Virus record (IMG/VR): IMGVR_UViG_3300037189_005260
Location: 1-30,634 of that record
Reading direction: 5' to 3' (one strand)
DNA length: 30,634 nt
From: a virus
Both the position numbers and the translations under genes were made by a program. Below are positions 1,559 through 26,806 of this stretch, piece by piece; the first letter of the stretch is position 1; the number at the start of each line of letters is the position of its first letter. A model generated the notes under the pieces. That model was not told the origin of the DNA. It did not search any database and saw nothing but the letters and a program-made list of their open reading frames with translations.

Positions 1559-1878
1559 TGAATTCTATACTAACCGAAGCTTTTAAGAGGCTAATTATAG
1601 CTAGAGGTCTAGTAGATACTGGATTCCTTTTAAATTCTATAAATGTTAGTACGAAATTAGTCGGCTCCGAAATCTATATAGATATAACTGGAGCCGACTA
1701 TTTGCCTTATGTAATTGTGGATAATGATCTAATAAATCTTTTCCAAAATGATCCATTAGTTAGCCAGGAAATATCTATAATGCTAACACCTATGATAGAA
1801 CAAATGGTTCAAGATGCTATAAACGGTAAATTTACAGACGTAACTCCAAGAGCATTTGTACTTATTAACGGAGTTTAA
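1558..1878 (+). CDS. Neck/head-tail joining protein, HK97 gp10-like
   Basis: A 106-residue protein. The stretch ARGLVDTGFLLNSINV followed by a short beta segment and GADYLPYV resembles the 'G-L--TG-L--SI' and 'Y-PYV' pattern of HK97 gp10-like head-tail joining proteins; this match is by eye and moderate. Its start overlaps the stop of the fibre gene (TAATG), and the neck-fibre fusion lies just upstream, which supports a neck role. Its stop overlaps the stop of the convergent minus-strand gene within TTTAAA at 1874-1879. An 11-bp perfect inverted repeat lies inside the coding sequence (1658-1700). Confidence 0.55.
   Translation: MNSILTEAFKRLIIARGLVDTGFLLNSINVSTKLVGSEIYIDITGADYLPYVIVDNDLINLFQNDPLVSQEISIMLTPMIEQMVQDAINGKFTDVTPRAFVLINGV
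1658..1700. repeat. 11-bp perfect inverted repeat with inner palindrome
   Basis: TAGTCGGCTCC at 1658-1668 pairs perfectly with GGAGCCGACTA at 1690-1700. The 21-base loop itself contains the 12-base palindrome ATCTATATAGAT (1672-1683). The arms are GC-rich in an AT-rich gene. It lies about 180 bases before the convergent gene ends, where no ordinary terminator is visible. Confidence 0.8.
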
Positions 1879-2642
1879 ACTTCGAATGTCTTTTTCATTC
1901 CAAGAACATTAAAAACTAAAATAATTTTTTGTCCAAAAACATCGTTAAATTTAGTAATATCTCCATTTGCTAAACCATATATGGTGTTTTCCCAACTAAA
2001 TTTAGCTTTAGATTGCTGTTTTAACAGTTCTTTTCTGTATTCTACATTTTCATAACCTACTAATTCTTCCTTTTCTTCTTGGATTTCTTTACCAGTATTG
2101 GAATCTTCGAATAGATTTTCGTAAGTTTTCATAAAATCTTTCTTCCAATTTATGTATTTTCTAAGCCAATACATACCAGAAGTGATAGGAATTTCACCAA
2201 ATTCTTCAGATCTTTTAACTATATCATAAATGTAGGGTTCGTAAATATCGTTACCCCATTCATCTTGTTTTTTATTTTTAAATAAAATAGCTAGAATTAT
2301 CTTTAGATTATCTAATGGTTCTTCCATATAGTGTTCTAAATCTATAAATTCACCAACTACTAATTCATTTAATTCAATAGGTTCTAATCCTATTTGTAGT
2401 TTTTGTGCATTACTTGGAGGATCTGCACTAAGAAATGATAGTTTTTCTATACAACTGAATAAATCGTCCACTGTTAGATCTTCTATATCCGGATCTGTAG
2501 AGTCAGTATCAAGAAGAACTGCTAGTTGCTCTAAAACTAAAGACATACTAGTCAGTTCTTCGTGTTCTAATGATTTAAGTTCGATGTATTGATCAATTGT
2601 TATTAGATTCCAATTGCTCGGTAGACGGTTCAATATCGACAT
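1875..2642 (-). CDS. Putative tail assembly chaperone, paralogue B
   Basis: A 255-residue acidic, mainly helical protein. Its order of motifs parallels the upstream 193-residue protein: an 'ITIDQY/FNIGQF' start, a 'VDDLFSCIEKL / DDELFEIIKSF' segment, a Pro-Leu-Gly region, an EF-L segment, 'NLKIILAILFKNKK / FSGVLSVVFKRQD', a Y-P segment and 'YWLRKYINWKK / YQYIVWITKK'. The C-terminal 80 residues are an extra charged extension. Two such adjacent genes in a tail module suggest tail assembly chaperones (as lambda G/GT); this role is inferred from context and not from a clear family match. Its start lies inside the preceding gene with a 50-base overlap. Confidence 0.55.
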   Translation of the reverse strand: MSILNRLPSNWNLITIDQYIELKSLEHEELTSMSLVLEQLAVLLDTDSTDPDIEDLTVDDLFSCIEKLSFLSADPPSNAQKLQIGLEPIELNELVVGEFIDLEHYMEEPLDNLKIILAILFKNKKQDEWGNDIYEPYIYDIVKRSEEFGEIPITSGMYWLRKYINWKKDFMKTYENLFEDSNTGKEIQEEKEELVGYENVEYRKELLKQQSKAKFSWENTIYGLANGDITKFNDVFGQKIILVFNVLGMKKTFEV

Positions 2643-3174
2643 TTAAACTTTTAATTTTTTCTGATAGTTTTTTAGTAATCCAAACAATGTATTGGTAAAA
2701 ATCCACTGCTGGTAATTCTTTAAACAAATTTGCTTTGTGTTTTAAATGTGCAGGAGTGTAATGTTCTACAGTTCCTAGATCCTGTCTTTTAAAAACAACA
2801 GAAAGTACTCCAGAGAAATAACTACTTTTATCCGAAAAAGCTTTCTCGATTAGGGAAAGATCCTTAGCTTTTAAATTAAATTCAGATCCTTCTTCGAAAC
2901 TAGCATAAACATAACCGTCTATTTCTATCGTTCTTTTAAGTCCTAATGGAATATCTTCTGATTTCTTTTGGAATGACTTAATGATTTCAAAAAGCTCATC
3001 ATCGCTTAAATTATCGATAAATTCACTTGGCAATTTAAACGCCTCTAAAAGATCAATATATCTTTCTACGTAAGTTACTTTTTCGTCGTTAAGAATTTTA
3101 GTAGCTGTTTCGAATTGACCAATATTAAAATCAGTAATTTGTGTTGGTATTTCTACCCCTTTAATTGTTATCAT
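2593..3174 (-). CDS. Putative tail assembly chaperone, paralogue A
   Basis: A 193-residue acidic, helical protein, apparently a paralogue of the next gene (shared motif order from residue 13 to 170). ATG at 3174 overlaps the stop of the upstream HNH gene as ATGA. Its last 16 codons overlap the first codons of the 255-residue gene in another frame, a 50-base overlap that is long for this compact genome and would allow a +1 or -2 frameshift to join the two. No slippery heptamer could be confirmed. It is on the minus strand although all other structural genes are on plus. The chaperone role is inference. Confidence 0.55.
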   Translation of the reverse strand: MITIKGVEIPTQITDFNIGQFETATKILNDEKVTYVERYIDLLEAFKLPSEFIDNLSDDELFEIIKSFQKKSEDIPLGLKRTIEIDGYVYASFEEGSEFNLKAKDLSLIEKAFSDKSSYFSGVLSVVFKRQDLGTVEHYTPAHLKHKANLFKELPAVDFYQYIVWITKKLSEKIKSLNVDIEPSTEQLESNNN

Positions 3175-3692
3175 AGTTGTGTTATTTTTCCGTATATTTT
3201 TAATTCCATTTCTTGATATGCTGTTTTAGCATCCTCTTCGTTTATAAAAGATCCTATATAAAACTTTTTACGATCTTTAATTATTCTTGCAACATACTTT
3301 TTTTTCTGTTTACAATAATGAACACCTAGATATTTAGAAGTTTTATTAGGTTTTTTTAAAGCGCTTCTAATAGAATTATCTCTAGCAGATATAATTCTAA
3401 GATTTTCTACTCGGTTATTTAATTTATCGAAATCGATATGATCTACGGTTAATGTAAAACCTTGTCTTTCATGATTTAAAAAAGCCATAGCAACTAATTG
3501 GTGTATTCTAAAGTTTTTATGTGTTTTATCTGGTAGGGTTAAATCTACTCTTAGATATCCACCAACACCTCTACTAGCTTTTAATTGTCTATTTCTTTGA
3601 GCATTTCTAATATTTCCTAGGTTGGAAGCTTCATATCTTCCGTTAAATCCTGGTATTTCTTTCCAAATTTCCATATGATCTTTATTTGCCAT
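3171..3692 (-). CDS. HNH homing endonuclease with NUMOD4 and AP2-like domains
   Basis: A 173-residue protein in three parts: NUMOD4 motif (EIWKEIPGFNGRYEASNLGN, residues 8-27), an HNH_3-type nuclease core (HQLVAMAFLNH, then VDHIDFDKLNNRVENLRIIS) and a C-terminal AP2-like DNA-binding domain (SKYLGVHY to IGSFINEEDAKTAY). Such free-standing nucleases cut DNA lacking the gene and spread by gene conversion. A second in-frame ATG at codon 7 is possible. It is the first gene of the minus-strand block; its TGA overlaps the ATG of the next gene by four bases. It shares this architecture with four other loci in the window. Confidence 0.88.
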   Translation of the reverse strand: MANKDHMEIWKEIPGFNGRYEASNLGNIRNAQRNRQLKASRGVGGYLRVDLTLPDKTHKNFRIHQLVAMAFLNHERQGFTLTVDHIDFDKLNNRVENLRIISARDNSIRSALKKPNKTSKYLGVHYCKQKKKYVARIIKDRKKFYIGSFINEEDAKTAYQEMELKIYGKITQL

Positions 3693-3758
3693 ATATTATA
3701 TATCGTTACAAATAAAAGATTTCTGTAAAAAATCTAATCAAAATCCAATTTATTTGTA
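3693..3758. promoter_or_regulatory. Divergent promoter region
   Basis: A 66-base gap separates divergent genes starting at 3692 (minus) and 3759 (plus). TTTATTTGTAA is present on both strands, one copy next to each gene (plus about 3748-3757, minus about 3703-3712), a near match to the Bacteroidota -7 box TAnnTTTG with one mismatch. The minus side also has GATATATAATATATG reaching the ATG. Promoter function is inferred from divergence and these sequences. Confidence 0.45.
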
Positions 3759-4847
3759 ATGACTGAAAAAGAATTATACAAAATTACTATTGATCCTGAA
3801 TATTCTGAGAATGGAGAGGATCTTGGTGTAGAGCAAATAGCATTTGTTAAGAACCCAGCCGTTAAGATGAAAGGATTTGCCTTTAATTCTAATGTTAAAC
3901 CTCTAGCATTTGCAGATGAACCTAAAATGAGAATTACTGCTCCCGCATTAATTCCAATGGATATTTACAGAAATGATGAATTTGGAGAATATTACGTCCA
4001 ATTCACAGAAACTGAAATCGAAAAAATATTTTCTAAGTTTATGCAAAACCTTTCTAATAAAGGTAAATTCAATTTAGAACACAACGCACAAAAAGAATCT
4101 CCAGCATATGTTTTAGAAGCATGGTTGGTAGATAAACCAAAACAAGATAAAGCTTATTCAACATTCGGATTAGAAGTTCCTAAAGGAACTCTTATGATGA
4201 CTGCACAGCTTACTGATAAGAAATTTTTTAACGATCTAGTTAGAAACGAACAAACAGGATTTTCGATCGAAGGTTTCCTTGGATTGAAATTAGAAGAGCA
4301 TTTAAGAAACATCGAGGAAGAACGTCTATCCTCGAATATTAAAAATAAATATGCAACTATGAAATTACCAGATGGAAATCACGAAATCGAAGGTAAAATT
4401 TATGTTGTTAAAGATGGTGAAGTAATAGAGATCCTAGACAAAGCCGAAATGGAAAATGAAATGCCCGATGGTCAAACTATCGAGAAAGATGCTCCAATCG
4501 GAACTGAAATGGGAGACCAAACTGCTTCTAAGTTAGAAGATGATGCAGCTGCAGCAGCAGCTGAAGAAGATGCAGCATCAGCAGCTGAAGCCGAAATGGA
4601 AATTAATGTAGAGCCTAATGCTGAATTAGCTCCAAATCCAGGACAGGAAGAAGTTAAGATGCAAATCGACGAAACTGAACTAATGACTATCTTGCAACCT
4701 AAGTTTGACGAGATTTACAAAATGATCGCAGATCTAAAAGCAGCAACAATTGAGCATGAGGATGAAGAAGAATACCCAATGGAAACAGTGGAAATGAGTA
4801 TTCATCAAAGATTCTCAAATGTTGTTAAAAATTACATTAAAAAATAA
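3759..4847 (+). CDS. Prohead serine protease (XkdF-like) fused to scaffold-like C-terminus
   Basis: A 362-residue protein. Residues about 60-200 resemble the XkdF family of putative phage serine proteases: LIPMDIYRNDEFGEYYVQFT, then KFNLEHN with probable catalytic His108, and NEQTGFSIEGFLG with probable catalytic Ser169. Residues about 255-285 are acidic and Ala-rich (runs of Ala between Glu/Asp), and the C-terminus is a charged helix, as in scaffold proteins. Protease-scaffold fusions are common where no separate scaffold gene exists, and none is seen here. Residues 283-294 (NVEPNAELAPNP) nearly repeat capsid residues 9-20, which may mark a cleavage site. The capsid gene follows 14 bases downstream. 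Its promoter is probably in the divergent gap upstream. Confidence 0.85.
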   Translation: MTEKELYKITIDPEYSENGEDLGVEQIAFVKNPAVKMKGFAFNSNVKPLAFADEPKMRITAPALIPMDIYRNDEFGEYYVQFTETEIEKIFSKFMQNLSNKGKFNLEHNAQKESPAYVLEAWLVDKPKQDKAYSTFGLEVPKGTLMMTAQLTDKKFFNDLVRNEQTGFSIEGFLGLKLEEHLRNIEEERLSSNIKNKYATMKLPDGNHEIEGKIYVVKDGEVIEILDKAEMENEMPDGQTIEKDAPIGTEMGDQTASKLEDDAAAAAAEEDAASAAEAEMEINVEPNAELAPNPGQEEVKMQIDETELMTILQPKFDEIYKMIADLKAATIEHEDEEEYPMETVEMSIHQRFSNVVKNYIKK

Positions 4848-4861
4848 AAAAATAAAAAACC

Positions 4862-5791
4862 ATGAGAAATCTAAAATTCGACTTGAATGTAGAACCAAAT
4901 GCGTTACTTTGCCCAAACCCGCAAGAATTCTACTCTAAGGCTTATATTACCGAAGATATCGTAGACAACTATCGTCCAATCCCAGGTGTTAAGTCTGCTA
5001 CTAAAGTTGCAAACGTATTGTTTGACAACGTATTAAAACCTTCTGCTTGTAACTTCTCAGCAGAACCACAAACATTAGATGCAATCGACATCGACGTATG
5101 TGCATTATCAGCAATGGCTGAACTTTGCCGTTTCGACTTGGAAGCATCTTTCGTTTCTTTACAAATGGCTAAAGGTTCTAACGGATCTTTCGAAGTACCA
5201 GCTTTTATGGCTTACTACTGGGATGAAATGGCTAAAGAAATCGCTGACGAAATCGCACAGCTTCGTTGGAAAGGTAACACTGGATCTCCGGGTACAGATA
5301 GCTTCTTAGATCTTTGTGACGGTTACGAAGTTAAATTCGATAACGATAACGACATCATCACAACTGGATGGACACCAGCTGCTATCACTTCAGCTAACGT
5401 ACTTGCTCAAATGGCATTAGTTTACGCTGCATTGCCAGGAAAAGTTAGAGCATTGAAAAGAGACTTACGTTTCTACGTTTCTTCTAACGTATATGCTGCT
5501 TACCAATTGGCTGCTGCTTTAGGTAACACTCAAACTTACGTTACTGAAAGCTTAGGCGATACTTTCTTAGGTATCAAAGTAGTTATTTGTGATGGTATGA
5601 GCAACAACACAATGGTATTAACTTCTAAAAACAACCTTATCTACGCATTCGACGGTGAAGATGATGGTAAAGCTTTGAAAGCAGTTAACCTTGAGGATTC
5701 AGTTGCTGAGCCTTTATTGAGAACTCGTGCAAACATCAAAGTTGGTTTCTTCTATGTAAACCCAACTGAGATCGTTTACTACTCTTACTAA
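4862..5791 (+). CDS. Major capsid protein (HK97-like)
   Basis: A 309-residue protein immediately after the prohead protease gene, the normal place for the capsid gene. It has an N-terminal segment, a long helix-rich middle (residues about 105-145, WDEMAKEIADEIAQLRWKGN) and a beta-rich C-terminal half with RFYVSSNVYAAY and NTMVLTSKNNLIYAFDGEDDG, consistent with an HK97-fold capsid subunit. Codon choice differs from neighbouring genes: many C-ending codons (AAC, TTC, GAC, TAC), as expected for a very highly expressed gene. Residues 9-20 (NVEPNALLCPNP) match the protease-scaffold protein. A hairpin follows the stop codon. Assignment rests on position, size and fold pattern. Confidence 0.88.
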   Translation: MRNLKFDLNVEPNALLCPNPQEFYSKAYITEDIVDNYRPIPGVKSATKVANVLFDNVLKPSACNFSAEPQTLDAIDIDVCALSAMAELCRFDLEASFVSLQMAKGSNGSFEVPAFMAYYWDEMAKEIADEIAQLRWKGNTGSPGTDSFLDLCDGYEVKFDNDNDIITTGWTPAAITSANVLAQMALVYAALPGKVRALKRDLRFYVSSNVYAAYQLAAALGNTQTYVTESLGDTFLGIKVVICDGMSNNTMVLTSKNNLIYAFDGEDDGKALKAVNLEDSVAEPLLRTRANIKVGFFYVNPTEIVYYSY

Positions 5792-6431: not shown

Positions 6432-6460
6432 AAAAAGGACTCTTAAATGAGTCCTTTTTT
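6432..6460. terminator. Bidirectional intrinsic terminator
   Basis: AAAAAGGACTC (6432-6442) pairs perfectly with GAGTCCTTTTT (6449-6459) around a 6-base loop, with a T run on the plus strand and, by symmetry, on the minus strand. It ends transcription of the tail gene on plus and of the broken HNH gene on minus; the minus-strand stop codon lies in the loop. Confidence 0.9.
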
Positions 6461-6937
6461 GTGGTCTTCTAATGCTTTTTGATAAACTTCGGAAGCTTCT
6501 TCTTCTGTATCGAAAACTCCCAATGAATGGTTTTTATTAAGAATTCTAATTCTTGCTTGCCATTTATTTCTAAATTTACTGACCCCTATATATTTAGAAC
6601 TTGTTAGTTTATTTTGAATATATAAATGTATATTTTCTCTATTAGATACTATTCTAAGATTTTTTAATCTGTTATCCTTTTTATTAAAATTTATATGATC
6701 TATAGTTGTTTCCATTCTATTAGGAATATAATCGCAAAAAGATATCATTACTAGTTGATGTACTAAAAATGATTTTTTTTTGCTATTTTTACATAAAGTT
6801 ATTCTTAAATATCCATGATTATTTAATCCGGGTTTTAATATTCGTTACTTATCAGTTTTAAGGCTCTTAACTCTTCCCCGGTTACTTACCATATAATCCT
6901 CATATCCTGGTATTTTTGCCCAAATTTCCTTTTCCAT
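6443..6937 (-). pseudogene. Broken HNH homing endonuclease (in-frame TAA)
   Basis: Reading from an ATG at 6937 gives MEKEIWAKIPGYEDYMVSNRGR, a complete NUMOD4 motif, then a TAA at codon 31 (6847-6845). The same frame continues at once with RILKPGLNNHGYLRITL, the HNH core (FLVHQLVMISFCDYIPNRMETTIDHINFNKKDNRLKNLRIVS) and a C-terminal AP2-like domain (SSKYIGVSKF to LGVFDTEEEASEVYQKAL). No frameshift is needed, so a single nonsense change disabled an otherwise intact gene of normal size. A downstream ATG at 6748 could still start a 101-residue protein that begins partway through the HNH core and lacks NUMOD4. The closest relatives in the window by eye are the 14985 and 9258 genes. Confidence 0.85.
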
Positions 6938-6982: not shown

Positions 6983-7390
6983 ATGATATACCTTAATAAA
7001 AATACAACAAACGAATTCGGTTTAGAATTTCCTTCTATCCCAACTGACTACGTACATTTCATGTTTGTATTTACATTCGAAAGTGCAGTTCAACAAGAAG
7101 AAAGATATTGGTTTTATGACAATCCTGTTTGCAACAGCAGAACTTATATTTTCGAATTAATAGAATCTGATTCTGCAGAACAAACCGACGAGATAAGTCC
7201 AATAAATCTTCCGATTGGACAATGGAGATATGAGGTATATGCTAGCAACAATCCAATTTCTTTAGGAAGTCCAGAAAATTTAGGGGACTTTATTCAGGAA
7301 GGCAGAATGGTTGTAGACGGAGTTACTACAGAACCTGAAGTTTATATTGGTACTCAAAAACAAGTTTATACACCAAACGTTTACGATTGA
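6983..7390 (+). CDS. Conserved phage protein of unknown function
   Basis: A 135-residue beta-rich protein: MIYLNKNTTNEFGLEFPS, VHFMFVFTFESAVQQEERYWF, INLPIGQWRYEVYASNNP, then LGDFIQEGRMVVDG. The pattern 'strands - G-W-YEVY - LE-GRM-V' is one I associate with small structural or fibre-linked proteins of Bacteroidota phages, but I cannot name a function. It lies between the tail and portal genes, has the GTAATATATA motif upstream, and its last 10 bases overlap the end of a convergent HNH gene. Confidence 0.7.
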   Translation: MIYLNKNTTNEFGLEFPSIPTDYVHFMFVFTFESAVQQEERYWFYDNPVCNSRTYIFELIESDSAEQTDEISPINLPIGQWRYEVYASNNPISLGSPENLGDFIQEGRMVVDGVTTEPEVYIGTQKQVYTPNVYD

Positions 7391-8037
7391 CGTAAGATAC
7401 CTGTATATAATTCCCAATCTTCCAAAGCTTCTTTTTCGTCTAAATAGTGATCTATGTGGTAAATATTACCCTCGTAGTCAAAAACATCCACTCGCCATTT
7501 ATGTTCACCTTCTAAATATAATAGACCCGGATATTTAACTTTTGGTATTATTTTTTTAAATGAACCAAACCAAAGTTCATGTACATTTTTAGCATCTTCC
7601 AACAAATTAAAATATCCTATATGTTTAAAAAATTCTTGTTTTTTCCTACGAATTCTATAGGAAACTTTCCATTTACCTAATTGTGGATACCAACTAATAT
7701 TTTTTACTCCACTAGGATTTAGTTTTTCCTGTCTTTTATTTTTTTGATTAAGTCTGGTAGATACTTCTAAATTATCTACGCAATTATTTAAAACGTTACC
7801 GTCTTTATGTTTAACAACTAATGTTGAGTCATTAAGATCTACTCCAAGAAAATAATGTGCAACTAATCTATGAATAGTTACTCTTCTTTGTTTCTTATCT
7901 TTTCTTAGTGTAACTAGATAAATATCCGCATTTTTTAAACTAACCATAAGCTTACCTTTTTGGTTAATTACTTTACCTGTATTGCTTATTCTATAAGGAA
8001 GATCAAATCCTTGTATTTCCTTCCAAACTTCCTCCAT
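7381..8037 (-). CDS. HNH homing endonuclease with two C-terminal DNA-binding repeats
   Basis: The ATG at 8037 starts a 218-residue protein with NUMOD4 (EEVWKEIQGFDLPYRISNTGKV), an HNH core (TIHRLVAHYFLGVD, then VVKHKDGNVLNNCVDNLEVST) and two AP2-like segments (GVKNISWYPQLGKWKVSYRI to LLEDAKNVHELW, and PGLLYLEGEHKWRVDVFDYEG to LDEKEALEDW). The first HNH His region reads KHKDGN instead of DHIDGN. A longer frame reaches 8109 but would run into the portal gene on the other strand, and the NUMOD4 motif begins at 8037. It is the most diverged of the five HNH loci. Its end overlaps the convergent gene by 10 bases. Confidence 0.8.
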   Translation of the reverse strand: MEEVWKEIQGFDLPYRISNTGKVINQKGKLMVSLKNADIYLVTLRKDKKQRRVTIHRLVAHYFLGVDLNDSTLVVKHKDGNVLNNCVDNLEVSTRLNQKNKRQEKLNPSGVKNISWYPQLGKWKVSYRIRRKKQEFFKHIGYFNLLEDAKNVHELWFGSFKKIIPKVKYPGLLYLEGEHKWRVDVFDYEGNIYHIDHYLDEKEALEDWELYTGILRQS

Positions 8038-8059
8038 GTAAAAATATCTTTGTAGTAAT

Positions 8060-8069
8060 GTAATATATA
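8060..8069 (+). promoter_or_regulatory. GTAATATATA motif upstream of portal gene
   Basis: Exact GTAATATATA ending 17 bases before the portal ATG at 8087; part of a longer TAATGTAATATATA shared with the copy at 6961. Confidence 0.5.
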
Positions 8070-8086
8070 TATCAAAATCATAAATT

Positions 8087-9241
8087 ATGAAAATATTAGG
8101 ATTTGACATAAGTAGATCAGGTGATGCTCCTAAGAAGGAGTCTAATCCACAGACATTCTCTGCTTTCTATCCCATTGGAAAAGAAAACTTATCTTTACCT
8201 TATATAGATCCATTATACACACTTAATGGTATCACACAATTTGGAACAGACAACCTTTACCCACAGAAACTAAACCAATTATATTTTAGTTCTCCTATTC
8301 ACTCCGCATGTATTGACTTTACAGTTAATGCTATTATCGGTGGAGGTTATACTTGGAACAACGAAAATGCTCCTGCTACAGAAATAGTAGACAGATTAGC
8401 ATTTGAAAAGTTTAATAAATTTGGTAAACTATCTAGATTATTAACAAGAGACTGGTTAATTCACAAAAGAATCACAGTTGAAGTTATAAGAAGAGGAGAA
8501 AAGGTAATTAAATTCCGTAGATATGATCCAGAAACTATTCGTAACAACGAATATTTCGACAGATTTATGTACTCATCTGACTGGAGAAGAGGTTATTTAA
8601 ACGCAAAAGAATTTATTAAGCACTACGACGGATGCAAAGAGGTATCTAGTCTTTATGTTTTCTACGATGAAAGTCCAGGTGTTAGTTCATATCCACTTCC
8701 TAGTTACAACGGTGCACTTAACTGGATTCAACTAGACGGAGAACAAGCTTATTTCCACAAGAACAATATTCAAAATGCTATATTCCCAAGTCTTGCTATT
8801 AGAAGACCTAAAGAATTTCAAAGTATTGACGAAATAGACAAATTTAAAACAGAAATTGCTAGTAAAACTGGAGCATCTAATGCAGGTAAAGTGTTAGTCT
8901 TAACTGGTAACGGTATAGATGATACACCAGAAGTTGTTAGCATCCCAACTAATGACAATAGTAAAATATTCGATTCTACATCTAAAGAATTAAAAGAGAA
9001 TATCTCTATTGCACACAAGATTAACCCTTCGATAATGGGTATTAAAACAGCAGGACAACTTGGAAATGTCCAAGAAATCGAAACGTCTTACACTATCTTC
9101 GAAAAAAATGTGGTTCAACCGGACAGAATGATAATGGAAGAGATACTTAATGAATTAATACACATAGCTGGGTTACATGATTCTATAACAATCAATAATT
9201 TTCAGATTATTGAAAATCAAATAGTAGATAAAACAGTATAA
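8087..9241 (+). CDS. Portal protein
   Basis: A 384-residue protein with the pattern of phage portal proteins from Bacteroidota phages: GITQFGTDNLYPQKLNQLYFSSPIHSACIDFTVNAIIGGGY near the N-terminus (residues about 48-90), a Trp-Arg-rich middle (SDWRRGYLNAKEFIKHY), and near the C-terminus the helix KINPSIMGIKTAGQLGNVQEIETSYTIFEKNVVQPDR that corresponds to the portal stem/crown region. The portal forms the dodecameric ring at the head vertex through which DNA is packaged. It is short for a portal (usual 400-500 residues) but looks complete. It is separated from the terminase genes by about 5 kb, which is unusual. Confidence 0.85.
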   Translation: MKILGFDISRSGDAPKKESNPQTFSAFYPIGKENLSLPYIDPLYTLNGITQFGTDNLYPQKLNQLYFSSPIHSACIDFTVNAIIGGGYTWNNENAPATEIVDRLAFEKFNKFGKLSRLLTRDWLIHKRITVEVIRRGEKVIKFRRYDPETIRNNEYFDRFMYSSDWRRGYLNAKEFIKHYDGCKEVSSLYVFYDESPGVSSYPLPSYNGALNWIQLDGEQAYFHKNNIQNAIFPSLAIRRPKEFQSIDEIDKFKTEIASKTGASNAGKVLVLTGNGIDDTPEVVSIPTNDNSKIFDSTSKELKENISIAHKINPSIMGIKTAGQLGNVQEIETSYTIFEKNVVQPDRMIMEEILNELIHIAGLHDSITINNFQIIENQIVDKTV

Positions 9242-9257: not shown

Positions 9258-9758
9258 ATGGAAATTTGGAAAGACATACCGGAATATGAGGGATATCAAG
9301 TTAGTAATTTAGGAAATGTTCGTAGTTGTAAATCTGGTAATTGGATAATCATGAATCCACAAAAAACAATTAAGGGATATTTAACTGTTCATCTAAGTTT
9401 AGGAAAAAGAGGTAATAGTAAAACTATATTCGTTCATAAATTAGTTTCTATAGCATTTTTAAATCATATTCCGAAAGGAATGTTGGAAGTAATAGATCAT
9501 ATAAATGGTATTAAAACTGATAATCGTTTAGAAAATATAAGATTAGTTACTACTAGAGATAATAATATTTATAAATCCCTAAGTATGAATACATCTAGTA
9601 AATATGTAGGGGTTGATTTTAGAAAATCTAGAAATAAATTTAGAGCTTGTATAACTATAAATAATAAAACTAAATATCTAGGTCAATTCAAATGCGAACT
9701 TCCAGCTGCTGCTGCTTACAACAAAGCACTAAAAGAATTAAATAAACAAAAAATATGA
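9258..9758 (+). CDS. HNH homing endonuclease (NUMOD4-HNH-AP2)
   Basis: A 166-residue protein: NUMOD4 at the N-terminus (MEIWKDIPEYEGYQVSNLGN), HNH core in the middle (FVHKLVSIAFLNHIPKG, then VIDHINGIKTDNRLENIRLVT) and AP2-like domain at the C-terminus (SSKYVGVDFRKSRNKFRACI to LGQFKCELPAAAAYNKALKEL). It sits between the portal and connector genes, and its TGA overlaps the connector ATG (ATGA), so insertion left the downstream gene translationally coupled. Most of the gene is very AT-rich; the last 25 or so codons (from about 9680) are noticeably richer in G and C. Confidence 0.9.
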   Translation: MEIWKDIPEYEGYQVSNLGNVRSCKSGNWIIMNPQKTIKGYLTVHLSLGKRGNSKTIFVHKLVSIAFLNHIPKGMLEVIDHINGIKTDNRLENIRLVTTRDNNIYKSLSMNTSSKYVGVDFRKSRNKFRACITINNKTKYLGQFKCELPAAAAYNKALKELNKQKI

Positions 9759-14880: not shown

Positions 14881-15037
14881 ATTTTTAACTAAAGAAGAAA
14901 AGGAAAGAATTAAATTACGGGTGGAAAAAGCCCTAGATAATTTAAGAACTAAATACGAGAATATTAATTTAGCAGAAAAAACACATGAGCAAAGAAAAAG
15001 AGATCTGGATGAGTATACCAGGATACGAGGATTATAA
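14873..15037 (+). CDS. Small charged helical protein, possibly truncated by HNH insertion
   Basis: An ATG at 14873, overlapping the TerS stop by eight bases, opens a 54-residue frame: MNEFLTKEEKERIKLRVEKALDNLRTKYENINLAEKTHEQRKRDL, then EYTRIRGL. The first 37 residues look like a real charged helix; the last 17 are encoded in the overlap with the HNH start and are probably not native. This suggests an old gene between TerS and TerL cut short when the HNH gene entered. It could also be a non-coding spacer. Confidence 0.4.
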   Translation: MNEFLTKEEKERIKLRVEKALDNLRTKYENINLAEKTHEQRKRDLDEYTRIRGL

Positions 15038-15497
15038 GGTAAGCGACCAAGGAAGGGTTAAGAGTCTTAAGTTTGGTAAGGAAAAAATTTTAGAACCTAT
15101 TTTAAATAAAGAATATTTAAAGGTTAATTTATTTAAAAATTGTAAAAAGAAAAATTATACAGTACATAATTTAGTTGCTATAACTTTCTTAGATCATATT
15201 CCAAACAGAATGGAAGGAGTTATAGATCATATTAATGGTATTAAAACCGATAATAGTTTAAAAAATCTTAGAATAGTATCTCAAAGAGAAAATACTACAT
15301 TTGGATGGCTTAAAAAAGAAACTTCTAGCAAATATCCAGGAGTTTGTATGCGTAAGAATTCTAAAAAATGGAGATCTTGTATTTATATAAACGGTAAACA
15401 AAAACATCTGGGTTACTTCGACACGGAGGAACTGGCCAGCCGGGCATACCAGGACAAATTAAAAGAGTTAAATGAATTTAGAAATCCAAGCAACTAA
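14985..15497 (+). CDS. HNH homing endonuclease between terminase genes
   Basis: A 170-residue NUMOD4-HNH-AP2 protein: KEIWMSIPGYEDYKVSDQGRVKSL, then TVHNLVAITFLDHIPNRME and VIDHINGIKTDNSLKNLRIVS, and the C-terminal SSKYPGVCMRKNSKKWRSCI to LGYFDTEELASRAYQDKLKEL. It starts inside a small frame and its last nine codons overlap the start of TerL by 26 bases. Bases about 15408-15460, coding for part of the AP2-like domain, are GC-rich (GGCCAGCCGGGC) in a gene otherwise very AT-rich, pointing to mosaic origin. Intergenic HNH genes next to terminase are common in phages. Confidence 0.9.
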   Translation: MSKEKEIWMSIPGYEDYKVSDQGRVKSLKFGKEKILEPILNKEYLKVNLFKNCKKKNYTVHNLVAITFLDHIPNRMEGVIDHINGIKTDNSLKNLRIVSQRENTTFGWLKKETSSKYPGVCMRKNSKKWRSCIYINGKQKHLGYFDTEELASRAYQDKLKELNEFRNPSN

Positions 15498-20877: not shown

Positions 20878-23501
<2,624 letters not shown>

Positions 23502-23502
<1 letters not shown>

Positions 23503-24748: not shown

Positions 24749-26806
24749 ATGTCAGAAATTACGAATGGAATGTCTGGATTGGAAGCCAGAGAAATATTAA
24801 ACGTCGTTACCACACGACCTTACACAGATTGGGGTTTAACCAATTATATTATTTTAGGTGGAGAATTTGAAGCAGCTGTTGTAGAAGCTTTATTAGTAAC
24901 TAATCTAGTAGAATTTGATTACGATCCTGAGGATAATGCTACTAAATTTAAAGCGACTAGACCGTATGCTATAAATTTCCCTGTACCTTTACCTATTACA
25001 TCATGGTATGATGATGCTTGTGTATCTATTGCTAAAGAGGTATTTAAAGATAATAGTATATTAGAATCTATGGAATTTACAAATCTTAGATCTATCGGAC
25101 CTAGTGCATTTGAAAGTGCTTCAGCTTTAACTAGTGTTAATATGCCTTTATTAACAGAAATCCCTGCAGCAGCTTTTAGATTTTGTGGGAATTTAGCTGA
25201 TGTAAGTTTTGATAGCGCAGAAATTGTAAAAAGTAGTCCTAATGCTGCTTTTGAAAATTCAGGTGTTACTGGAATTAACGATACTAATTTCCCTTCTTTA
25301 ATTACTGTTGAAAGTGGGGCTTTTGGTTATTCTTCTAATTTAGCAGTAATAAATAATACTTCTATAACTGATTGGCAAGGAACTTTTAGTAATTTAGCCG
25401 GGTTAACTACTATAAATTTACCTAACGTAACTACTTTATCAGGAGGTGGTAGTATGTTTACCGATTGTGCTAGTTTAACTACTATAGATATACCTGTCAC
25501 TTTGCCTTTGAATGGATATAATTTCCAAGGATGTAGTAGTTTAGTTACATTTACTGGTTCAGATATTACTTTAGATTCTACTACTATTACAGGAGGAGCC
25601 AACTTTAAAAATTGTAGTAGCTTAACTGAATTATCAATAGCAGATTGTACTGAAATTACTGGAGGCAACAACTTTGAAGGATGTAGCAGTTTAACTGAGT
25701 TATCTTTACCGTTAGTAACTACACTTACTGGAGGTAACAATTTCAAAGACTGTACAGATTTAACTGAGATATCTTTGGATACGTTAGTTAATTTAACTAA
25801 CACAGAATTTTCAGGATGTACATCTTTGACTACTATTTATATGCCTCAACTTTCTGTAACTGGAGAAGTTAATATCTTTGATGGTTTACCAGACGACGGA
25901 GCAATCACAGTAAATTCAGATATTAATTCAGATACTAATTGGACAACAGTTGTTGAACCATATTTAGATGGTAAAGGTTGGACAATTACTTATTTTTCAG
26001 CTATTGATCCTGATGCACAAGCATATTTAGATGCTGTTGAAGCTGCTGGAGGAACTGTTAACTCTACAATATCTGAAGCAACAAATACATTATTTGTTAG
26101 TTTAAAAGATGCTAATATTTATTCTAAATTAGATGTGTTTTATCCGATGATAGGTGGAACTTATAATTCTATTAGAATTGAAGGAAAATTACAAAATACT
26201 TATTATTTAACAGAAAATGGTTCTTGGACTTATGATTCAAATGGTGCAACTACAACAGGAACTACTGTAGGTAGTACGTATTTTAATACCCAATACAATT
26301 GTCTTACTAATTTAACAAGTGCAAATAGTTCATATAGTACTTATTGGGTAAATACACATAATTATACACCATCAAACGACCAATATTTTTCTGGAGCTTA
26401 TACAGCTCAAACAGAAATGTGGTCTTTAAACCCTTATAATTCTACTGGTTGGAACTTTATAGGATACAGAAATGGAGAGGGACCTAATTTTAATCCAGCA
26501 ACTGCAGGAATATTGACAGATGGGGGATATTTTATAAATAGTGAACTTAATGTTAGCGGAACTGATACTATACAAGGTATGGTTAATACTGCAACTTATG
26601 TTTCACAAGCAATGTCTTCACCTACTAATTTACCAAACACAAATTTCTTTTTAGGTAGTATATCCTTATCTGGTTCACCATATAATAGTATCCCAGGAAC
26701 TTACAATTTCTTACATATTGGAGAAGGTCTTACACAATCTGAAATGACTGAATTATCAACAATCGTAAACACTTTCCAAACTACATTAGGAAGAAATACC
26801 TATTAA
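24749..26806 (+). CDS. Leucine-rich-repeat (BspA-like) tail fibre protein
   Basis: A 685-residue protein. Residues about 100-385 are BspA-type leucine-rich repeats: LESMEFTNLRSIGPSAFESASALTSVNMPLLTEIPAAAFRFCGNL, then repeated units with NFKNCSSLTELSI, NNFEGCSSLTELSLPLVTTLTGG and NNFKDCTDLTEISLD. The C-terminal 270 residues, from DPDAQAYLDAVEAAGGTVNS, form a beta domain (FVSLKDANIYSKLDVFYPMIG, LGSISLSGSPYNSIPGTYNFLHIGEGLTQSEMTELSTIVNTFQTTLGR) that recurs in Bacteroidota phage and prophage proteins. BspA-like repeats are common in surface proteins of gut and oral bacteria; here they probably bind a host surface ligand. Confidence 0.82.
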   Translation: MSEITNGMSGLEAREILNVVTTRPYTDWGLTNYIILGGEFEAAVVEALLVTNLVEFDYDPEDNATKFKATRPYAINFPVPLPITSWYDDACVSIAKEVFKDNSILESMEFTNLRSIGPSAFESASALTSVNMPLLTEIPAAAFRFCGNLADVSFDSAEIVKSSPNAAFENSGVTGINDTNFPSLITVESGAFGYSSNLAVINNTSITDWQGTFSNLAGLTTINLPNVTTLSGGGSMFTDCASLTTIDIPVTLPLNGYNFQGCSSLVTFTGSDITLDSTTITGGANFKNCSSLTELSIADCTEITGGNNFEGCSSLTELSLPLVTTLTGGNNFKDCTDLTEISLDTLVNLTNTEFSGCTSLTTIYMPQLSVTGEVNIFDGLPDDGAITVNSDINSDTNWTTVVEPYLDGKGWTITYFSAIDPDAQAYLDAVEAAGGTVNSTISEATNTLFVSLKDANIYSKLDVFYPMIGGTYNSIRIEGKLQNTYYLTENGSWTYDSNGATTTGTTVGSTYFNTQYNCLTNLTSANSSYSTYWVNTHNYTPSNDQYFSGAYTAQTEMWSLNPYNSTGWNFIGYRNGEGPNFNPATAGILTDGGYFINSELNVSGTDTIQGMVNTATYVSQAMSSPTNLPNTNFFLGSISLSGSPYNSIPGTYNFLHIGEGLTQSEMTELSTIVNTFQTTLGRNTY

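Follow-up and report, generated by a model that had tools for sequence, protein, structure and literature searches.

Close to its N-terminus, the major capsid protein of a virus recorded in IMG/VR (IMGVR_UViG_3300037189_005260; 30,634 bases, all of which were analyzed and are called the window here) carries a short sequence that recurs inside the protease-scaffold protein. The genes of both proteins adjoin and lie on the + strand. Why should a scaffold contain a piece of the capsid protein? The following features are relevant to this question:

3759-4847, + strand: protease-scaffold fusion, 362 aa
Protease-scaffold residues ~50-173: S78_2/XkdF-type serine protease domain (PF14550, E 1.2e-10)
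Protease-scaffold residues ~204-227: small predicted beta domain (low-confidence model secondary structure)
Between protease and coiled coil: acidic low-complexity linker, followed by the capsid-like motif
4596-4640, + strand: capsid-like cassette in the scaffold linker, MEINVEPNAELAPNP, scaffold residues 280-294
4605-4640, + strand: originally noted scaffold motif NVEPNAELAPNP, scaffold residues 283-294
Protease-scaffold residues 305-334: predicted coiled-coil helix (low-confidence model secondary structure and alignment)
Protease-scaffold residues 348-359: predicted basic C-terminal helix (low-confidence model secondary structure and alignment)
4862-5791, + strand: major capsid protein, probable HK97 fold, 309 aa (phrog_1623, phrog_11320)
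4877-4921, + strand: capsid N-terminal segment FDLNVEPNALLCPNP, capsid residues 6-20
4886-4921, + strand: originally noted capsid motif NVEPNALLCPNP, capsid residues 9-20

The protease-scaffold and capsid genes

The protease-scaffold protein matched phrog_24921 (E 3.2e-23), and its match to PF14550 (Peptidase S78_2 / XkdF-type) scored 41.9 bits compared to a curated cut-off of 24. Since the candidate catalytic residues His108 and Ser169 were also invariant in an alignment of 23 relatives, the protein qualifies as a putative phage serine protease of this family by both profile and conserved candidate residues. The N-terminal protease, the C-terminal coiled-coil scaffold and the position of the gene next to the capsid gene correspond to the architecture of gpO of phage P2. 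As in the P2 gpO/gpN pair, a protease fused to a C-terminal scaffold would act on a capsid protein that has an HK97 fold and an N-terminal arm; the likeness is architectural, and we established no sequence relationship of the P2 proteins to those of the window. In the protease-scaffolds of two relatives (L020:2660-3979 and L068:2644-3969), about 100 additional residues are inserted where the protease part gives way to the scaffold part.

The model of the capsid protein reached a best VIA-align Z of 11.6 with the phiRSA1 capsid (7oz4) and of 9.4-9.8 with HK97 forms over model residues 74-309, in a fold search that took in only about residues 73-309, and on this structural comparison we assign it to the HK97 fold with moderate confidence. 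Its mean pLDDT was 59.7, with low confidence for residues 1-91 (mostly pLDDT <50), and the scaffold linker was unstructured in the predicted model (mostly pLDDT <50), so that neither the packing of the capsid N-arm nor the docking of the scaffold can be read from the models. A search among solved structures gave no sequence match to the capsid protein, and a search among cultured phages gave no relative of the capsid protein, one weak match for the protease and none for the scaffold motif region. As one relative sits on a contig binned as uncultured Bacteroidetes bacterium, our guess is that the phages of this small uncultivated group infect Bacteroidota.

The window has an unusually dense set of homing-endonuclease-like genes interspersed with the structural genes, namely five HNH endonuclease ORFs at 3171-3692 (-), 6443-6748 (-), 7381-8109 (-), 9258-9758 (+) and 14985-15497 (+), four of them with a NUMOD4 motif and three with an AP2-like domain. 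Collagen-like GATGATG / GSSGTSG repeats mark 734-1558 and 20878-23502 as probable tail or fibre genes, and the 685-aa product of 24749-26806, which has leucine-rich repeats of the BspA type (PF13306, E 1.6e-30), is possibly involved in receptor binding or adhesion. The neighboring ORFs 1875-2642 (-) and 2593-3174 (-) overlap, have no Pfam match and are similar to each other in appearance.

Extent and significance of the shared sequence

The 10 identities in 12 positions that had been reported for scaffold residues 283-294 and capsid residues 9-20 were confirmed, and the likeness was found to be longer, covering about 15 residues (MEINVEPNAELAPNP in the scaffold versus FDLNVEPNALLCPNP in the capsid protein). 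The upstream extension consists of conservative changes (MEI versus FDL). The best ungapped BLOSUM62 score between the two proteins was 62, whereas the scores after shuffling the scaffold 2000 times averaged 32 and never exceeded 55, which corresponds to a Gumbel p of ~4e-5 for this protein pair; if every pair of proteins in the window is considered, this significance drops by some orders of magnitude. With a position-specific profile built from 28 distinct capsid N-termini, the scaffold site scored 25.3 bits and the runner-up among 17,472 window positions 7.7 bits, and no further copy above 8 bits was present in any ORF of the window. As shuffled sequences and all other positions scored below the observed site, a likeness by chance appears unlikely.

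At the DNA level, 30 of 51 bases of the two copies are identical and 6 of the 10 identical motif residues are encoded by different codons. These values rule out a recent copying of DNA within the window, in agreement with the first-pass annotation.

In the capsid protein, the segment belongs to a conserved block that continues through EFYSKAY (residues 22-28), and residues 6-28 are among the most conserved stretches of the capsid protein in this phage group. The stretch N-A-L-L-C-[P/A]-N-P-x-E-F-Y-S-[K/R]-x-Y was near-invariant both in 25 representative capsids and in 72 capsids, and its core was still recognizable in capsids outside the set of protease/capsid pairs described below. The L153 capsid (match 3001-3936) has an additional N-terminal stretch, MRELHFDFKDIKEASKEIEA, preceding the conserved KFDLTVETNALLCPNP, and the motif therefore need not be located at the extreme N-terminus.

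Distribution and evolution of the scaffold copy

Scans of IMG/VR with the capsid protein, the protease, motif patterns and the scaffold C-terminal region yielded 74 non-redundant protease/capsid pairs, including the very divergent L090. The motif was present in both proteins in six pairs (the window, L001, L002 together with L003, L004, L064 and L094), eroded in the scaffold of one (L008/L009) and confined to the capsid protein in the remaining 67. The carriers of the scaffold copy belong to the window's clade and to a single other lineage. It was also missing from eight further, more distant scaffolds, which keep the protease, the coiled coil and the capsid motif. Thus, the scaffold copy appears to be optional in this phage group, and most close relatives do without it. 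Two further matches were discarded: L101, picked up by scanning for a DNA pattern, proved to be unrelated, and a 16.4-bit match in L071 falls within an unrelated tail-like protein.

Where it occurs, the copy lies between protease and coiled coil, immediately before a conserved (K/R)MxIDE..L stretch. The surrounding linker cannot be aligned among the relatives, yet the 15-residue copies of the window, L004 and L064 differ by three to four synonymous and no non-synonymous codon changes, a pattern indicating that the copy is maintained by selection where present. It retains the capsid-conserved residues N13, A14, L16, N19 and P20, with conservation on either side of any possible cut (PNA-x-L-x-PNP plus MEI-x-V), but replaces the capsid-invariant Leu15 (by Glu/Val) and the near-invariant Cys17 (by Ala/Ser).

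The position matching capsid residue 12 is always Pro in the scaffold copy. Pro12 was found in four of six capsids of carriers and in three of 66 others (Fisher p 5e-4, kinship ignored). As Pro12 is typical only of the capsids of the window's clade, this suggests a single origin of the copy from such a capsid, followed by loss or transfer. In a protease-domain tree, which leaves out the linker, presence and absence require at least three to four gains or losses on well-supported branches, and in the capsid tree at least two changes. The clearest contrast is that of L064 and L072: their proteases group together, their capsids share the same first 40 residues and are each ~95% identical to the L094 capsid, but the scaffold copy is present in L064 only, L072 having a different linker in which the whole stretch is replaced.

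Docking, cleavage and other explanations

The first-pass annotation had presented the motif as a candidate maturation cleavage site common to both proteins, an idea to be given up if relatives had the motif in one protein only, and this is the situation in 67 of the 74 pairs. What stands of this proposal is a likeness that is unlikely to be accidental and appears to be under selection. Since the scaffold copy is missing in most relatives, a mandatory shared cleavage site was dismissed as the main explanation. An alignment of relatives, which had been recommended to look for joint variation, showed that the two copies do not vary together. In L064 and L094, Pro of the scaffold copy corresponds to Thr and Ala, respectively, in the capsid protein. 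The alternative of a shared docking sequence, also raised at that time, fits the data better as far as the sequences allow an inference. We consider an optional docking sequence more likely than an essential cutting site and, with a probability of roughly 45%, favor the reading that the scaffold copy, placed between protease and coiled coil, imitates the capsid N-arm as a short linear motif and would dock at the N-arm site. The ~15 conserved residues are long for a protease site and suit a binding strand; this span, the conservation on both sides of a cut and the differences at Leu15 and Cys17 are all better explained by a binding peptide. Due to these two replacements, a docking peptide would need to bind through the other face. 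The missing co-variation of the copies counts against a mimic.

According to the mimic reading, the copy would derive from the capsid gene of a phage in the window's clade and would later have been lost or moved between phages by recombination. It might act as an accessory docking peptide that occupies, in the procapsid, the site of the capsid N-arm tip, either on the shell or on the protease, and might thereby provide an additional anchor for the scaffold and the fused protease until the scaffold is removed during maturation. Relatives without the copy would depend on the C-terminal basic helix alone.

Among the competing explanations, the prohead protease might recognize the same sequence in both proteins and cut the capsid protein within residues 9-20 and its own linker, thereby freeing itself from the scaffold. 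The Asn-Ala step common to both copies resembles herpesvirus cleavage sites, which have Ala at the cut position. Examples are the PrV sites YLQA-T and VQA-S (PMC4498786). Moreover, the location is suitable, as P2 gpO (PMC7552001) and herpesvirus assemblin (PMC4498786) free themselves from their scaffolds in the linker that separates protease and coiled coil, and phage 80alpha provides a precedent for one short cleavage sequence common to capsid and scaffold (PMC5744158). However, besides its absence from most pairs and from the distant scaffolds with intact protease, coiled coil and capsid motif, the copy contains prolines that forbid or disfavor several possible cuts, does not retain Leu15 and Cys17 and appears to be selected at PNP, four to six residues past the most plausible cut, which is unexpected for a protease site. 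Our literature searches yielded neither maturation cleavage data for this phage group nor a mature capsid N-terminus. All in all, we regard shared cleavage as rather unlikely, although it deserves to be taken seriously.

Alternatively, the two peptides could have a third molecule as their common binding partner, for instance the portal, a host chaperone or a host defence sensor, the scaffold copy serving as decoy for the last of these. The patchy presence is as expected for an optional trait depending on host or partner, but no candidate was identified, no other ORF of the window having the motif above 8 bits, and we judge this improbable. Still less credible is a functionless relic, i.e., a piece of the capsid gene that landed in a tolerant linker and persists there. 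The linker is indeed hypervariable and tolerates large changes, as illustrated by the replacement in L072 and the erosion in L008/L009, but a relic would hardly have kept its amino acids through three to four synonymous changes in an otherwise unalignable linker. The least weight is given to a chance likeness between two independently conserved peptides: only 12-15 residues are involved, the two copies resemble each other no more in DNA than in protein, and the lowered significance in a search over all pairs is in its favor, whereas the shuffle statistics for the pair, the distance of the profile score from the runner-up and the clade-specific Pro12 common to both copies argue against it.

Several systems are comparable to the proposed N-arm mimic. 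The N-terminal 14 residues of the P2/P4 capsid protein attach to trimer interfaces within the procapsid and are lost afterwards, when residues 1-31 are removed (PMC7552001). A motif resembling the gpN N-terminus was sought in the P2 scaffold gpO, but none was found (PMC7552001); in contrast, the window's scaffold contains a capsid-like motif, which would supply the piece missing in gpO. In 80alpha, the scaffold contacts the N-arm helix of the capsid protein (PMC5644958), and the RIIK motif of its scaffold and of SaPI1 CpmB is an example of a short motif reused such that a second protein docks at the same capsid site and competes (PMC5644958). The window motif might dock in a similar way; unlike RIIK, which is common to two scaffolds, it is common to scaffold and capsid. 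In the Prp system of 80alpha, capsid and scaffold likewise have a short sequence in common close to the N-terminus of the capsid protein (PMC5744158). There, both proteins carry it N-terminally, a host protease cuts it between Phe and Ala, and ribosomal protein L27 has it as well (PMC5744158), whereas the scaffold copy of the window is internal, lacks Phe-Ala and is absent from most relatives; the window motif is thus not a Phe-Ala sequence at both N-termini of the 80alpha type. The herpesvirus assemblin-scaffold pUL26 is likewise a serine protease-scaffold fusion, with a linker cut between the two parts (PMC4498786). The cleavage sequence is not described there for the herpesvirus capsid protein itself (PMC4498786), but the window's capsid protein carries the motif.

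The scaffold motif is therefore best described as an optional, apparently selected, capsid-mimicking linear motif; as a kind, short motifs that scaffold and capsid systems have in common are already known. It is conceivable, though we hold this only tentatively, that scaffolds can gain by copying, and swap between phages, an N-arm mimic that fills the N-arm site of the procapsid and tunes assembly or protease loading. As procapsid maps show most of the scaffold as disordered, the way in which scaffolds grip capsid subunits ahead of maturation is poorly resolved. A scaffold with a recognizable piece of the capsid N-terminus would point straight to the docking site, and natural pairs with and without this piece, such as L064 and L072, are a ready-made comparison.
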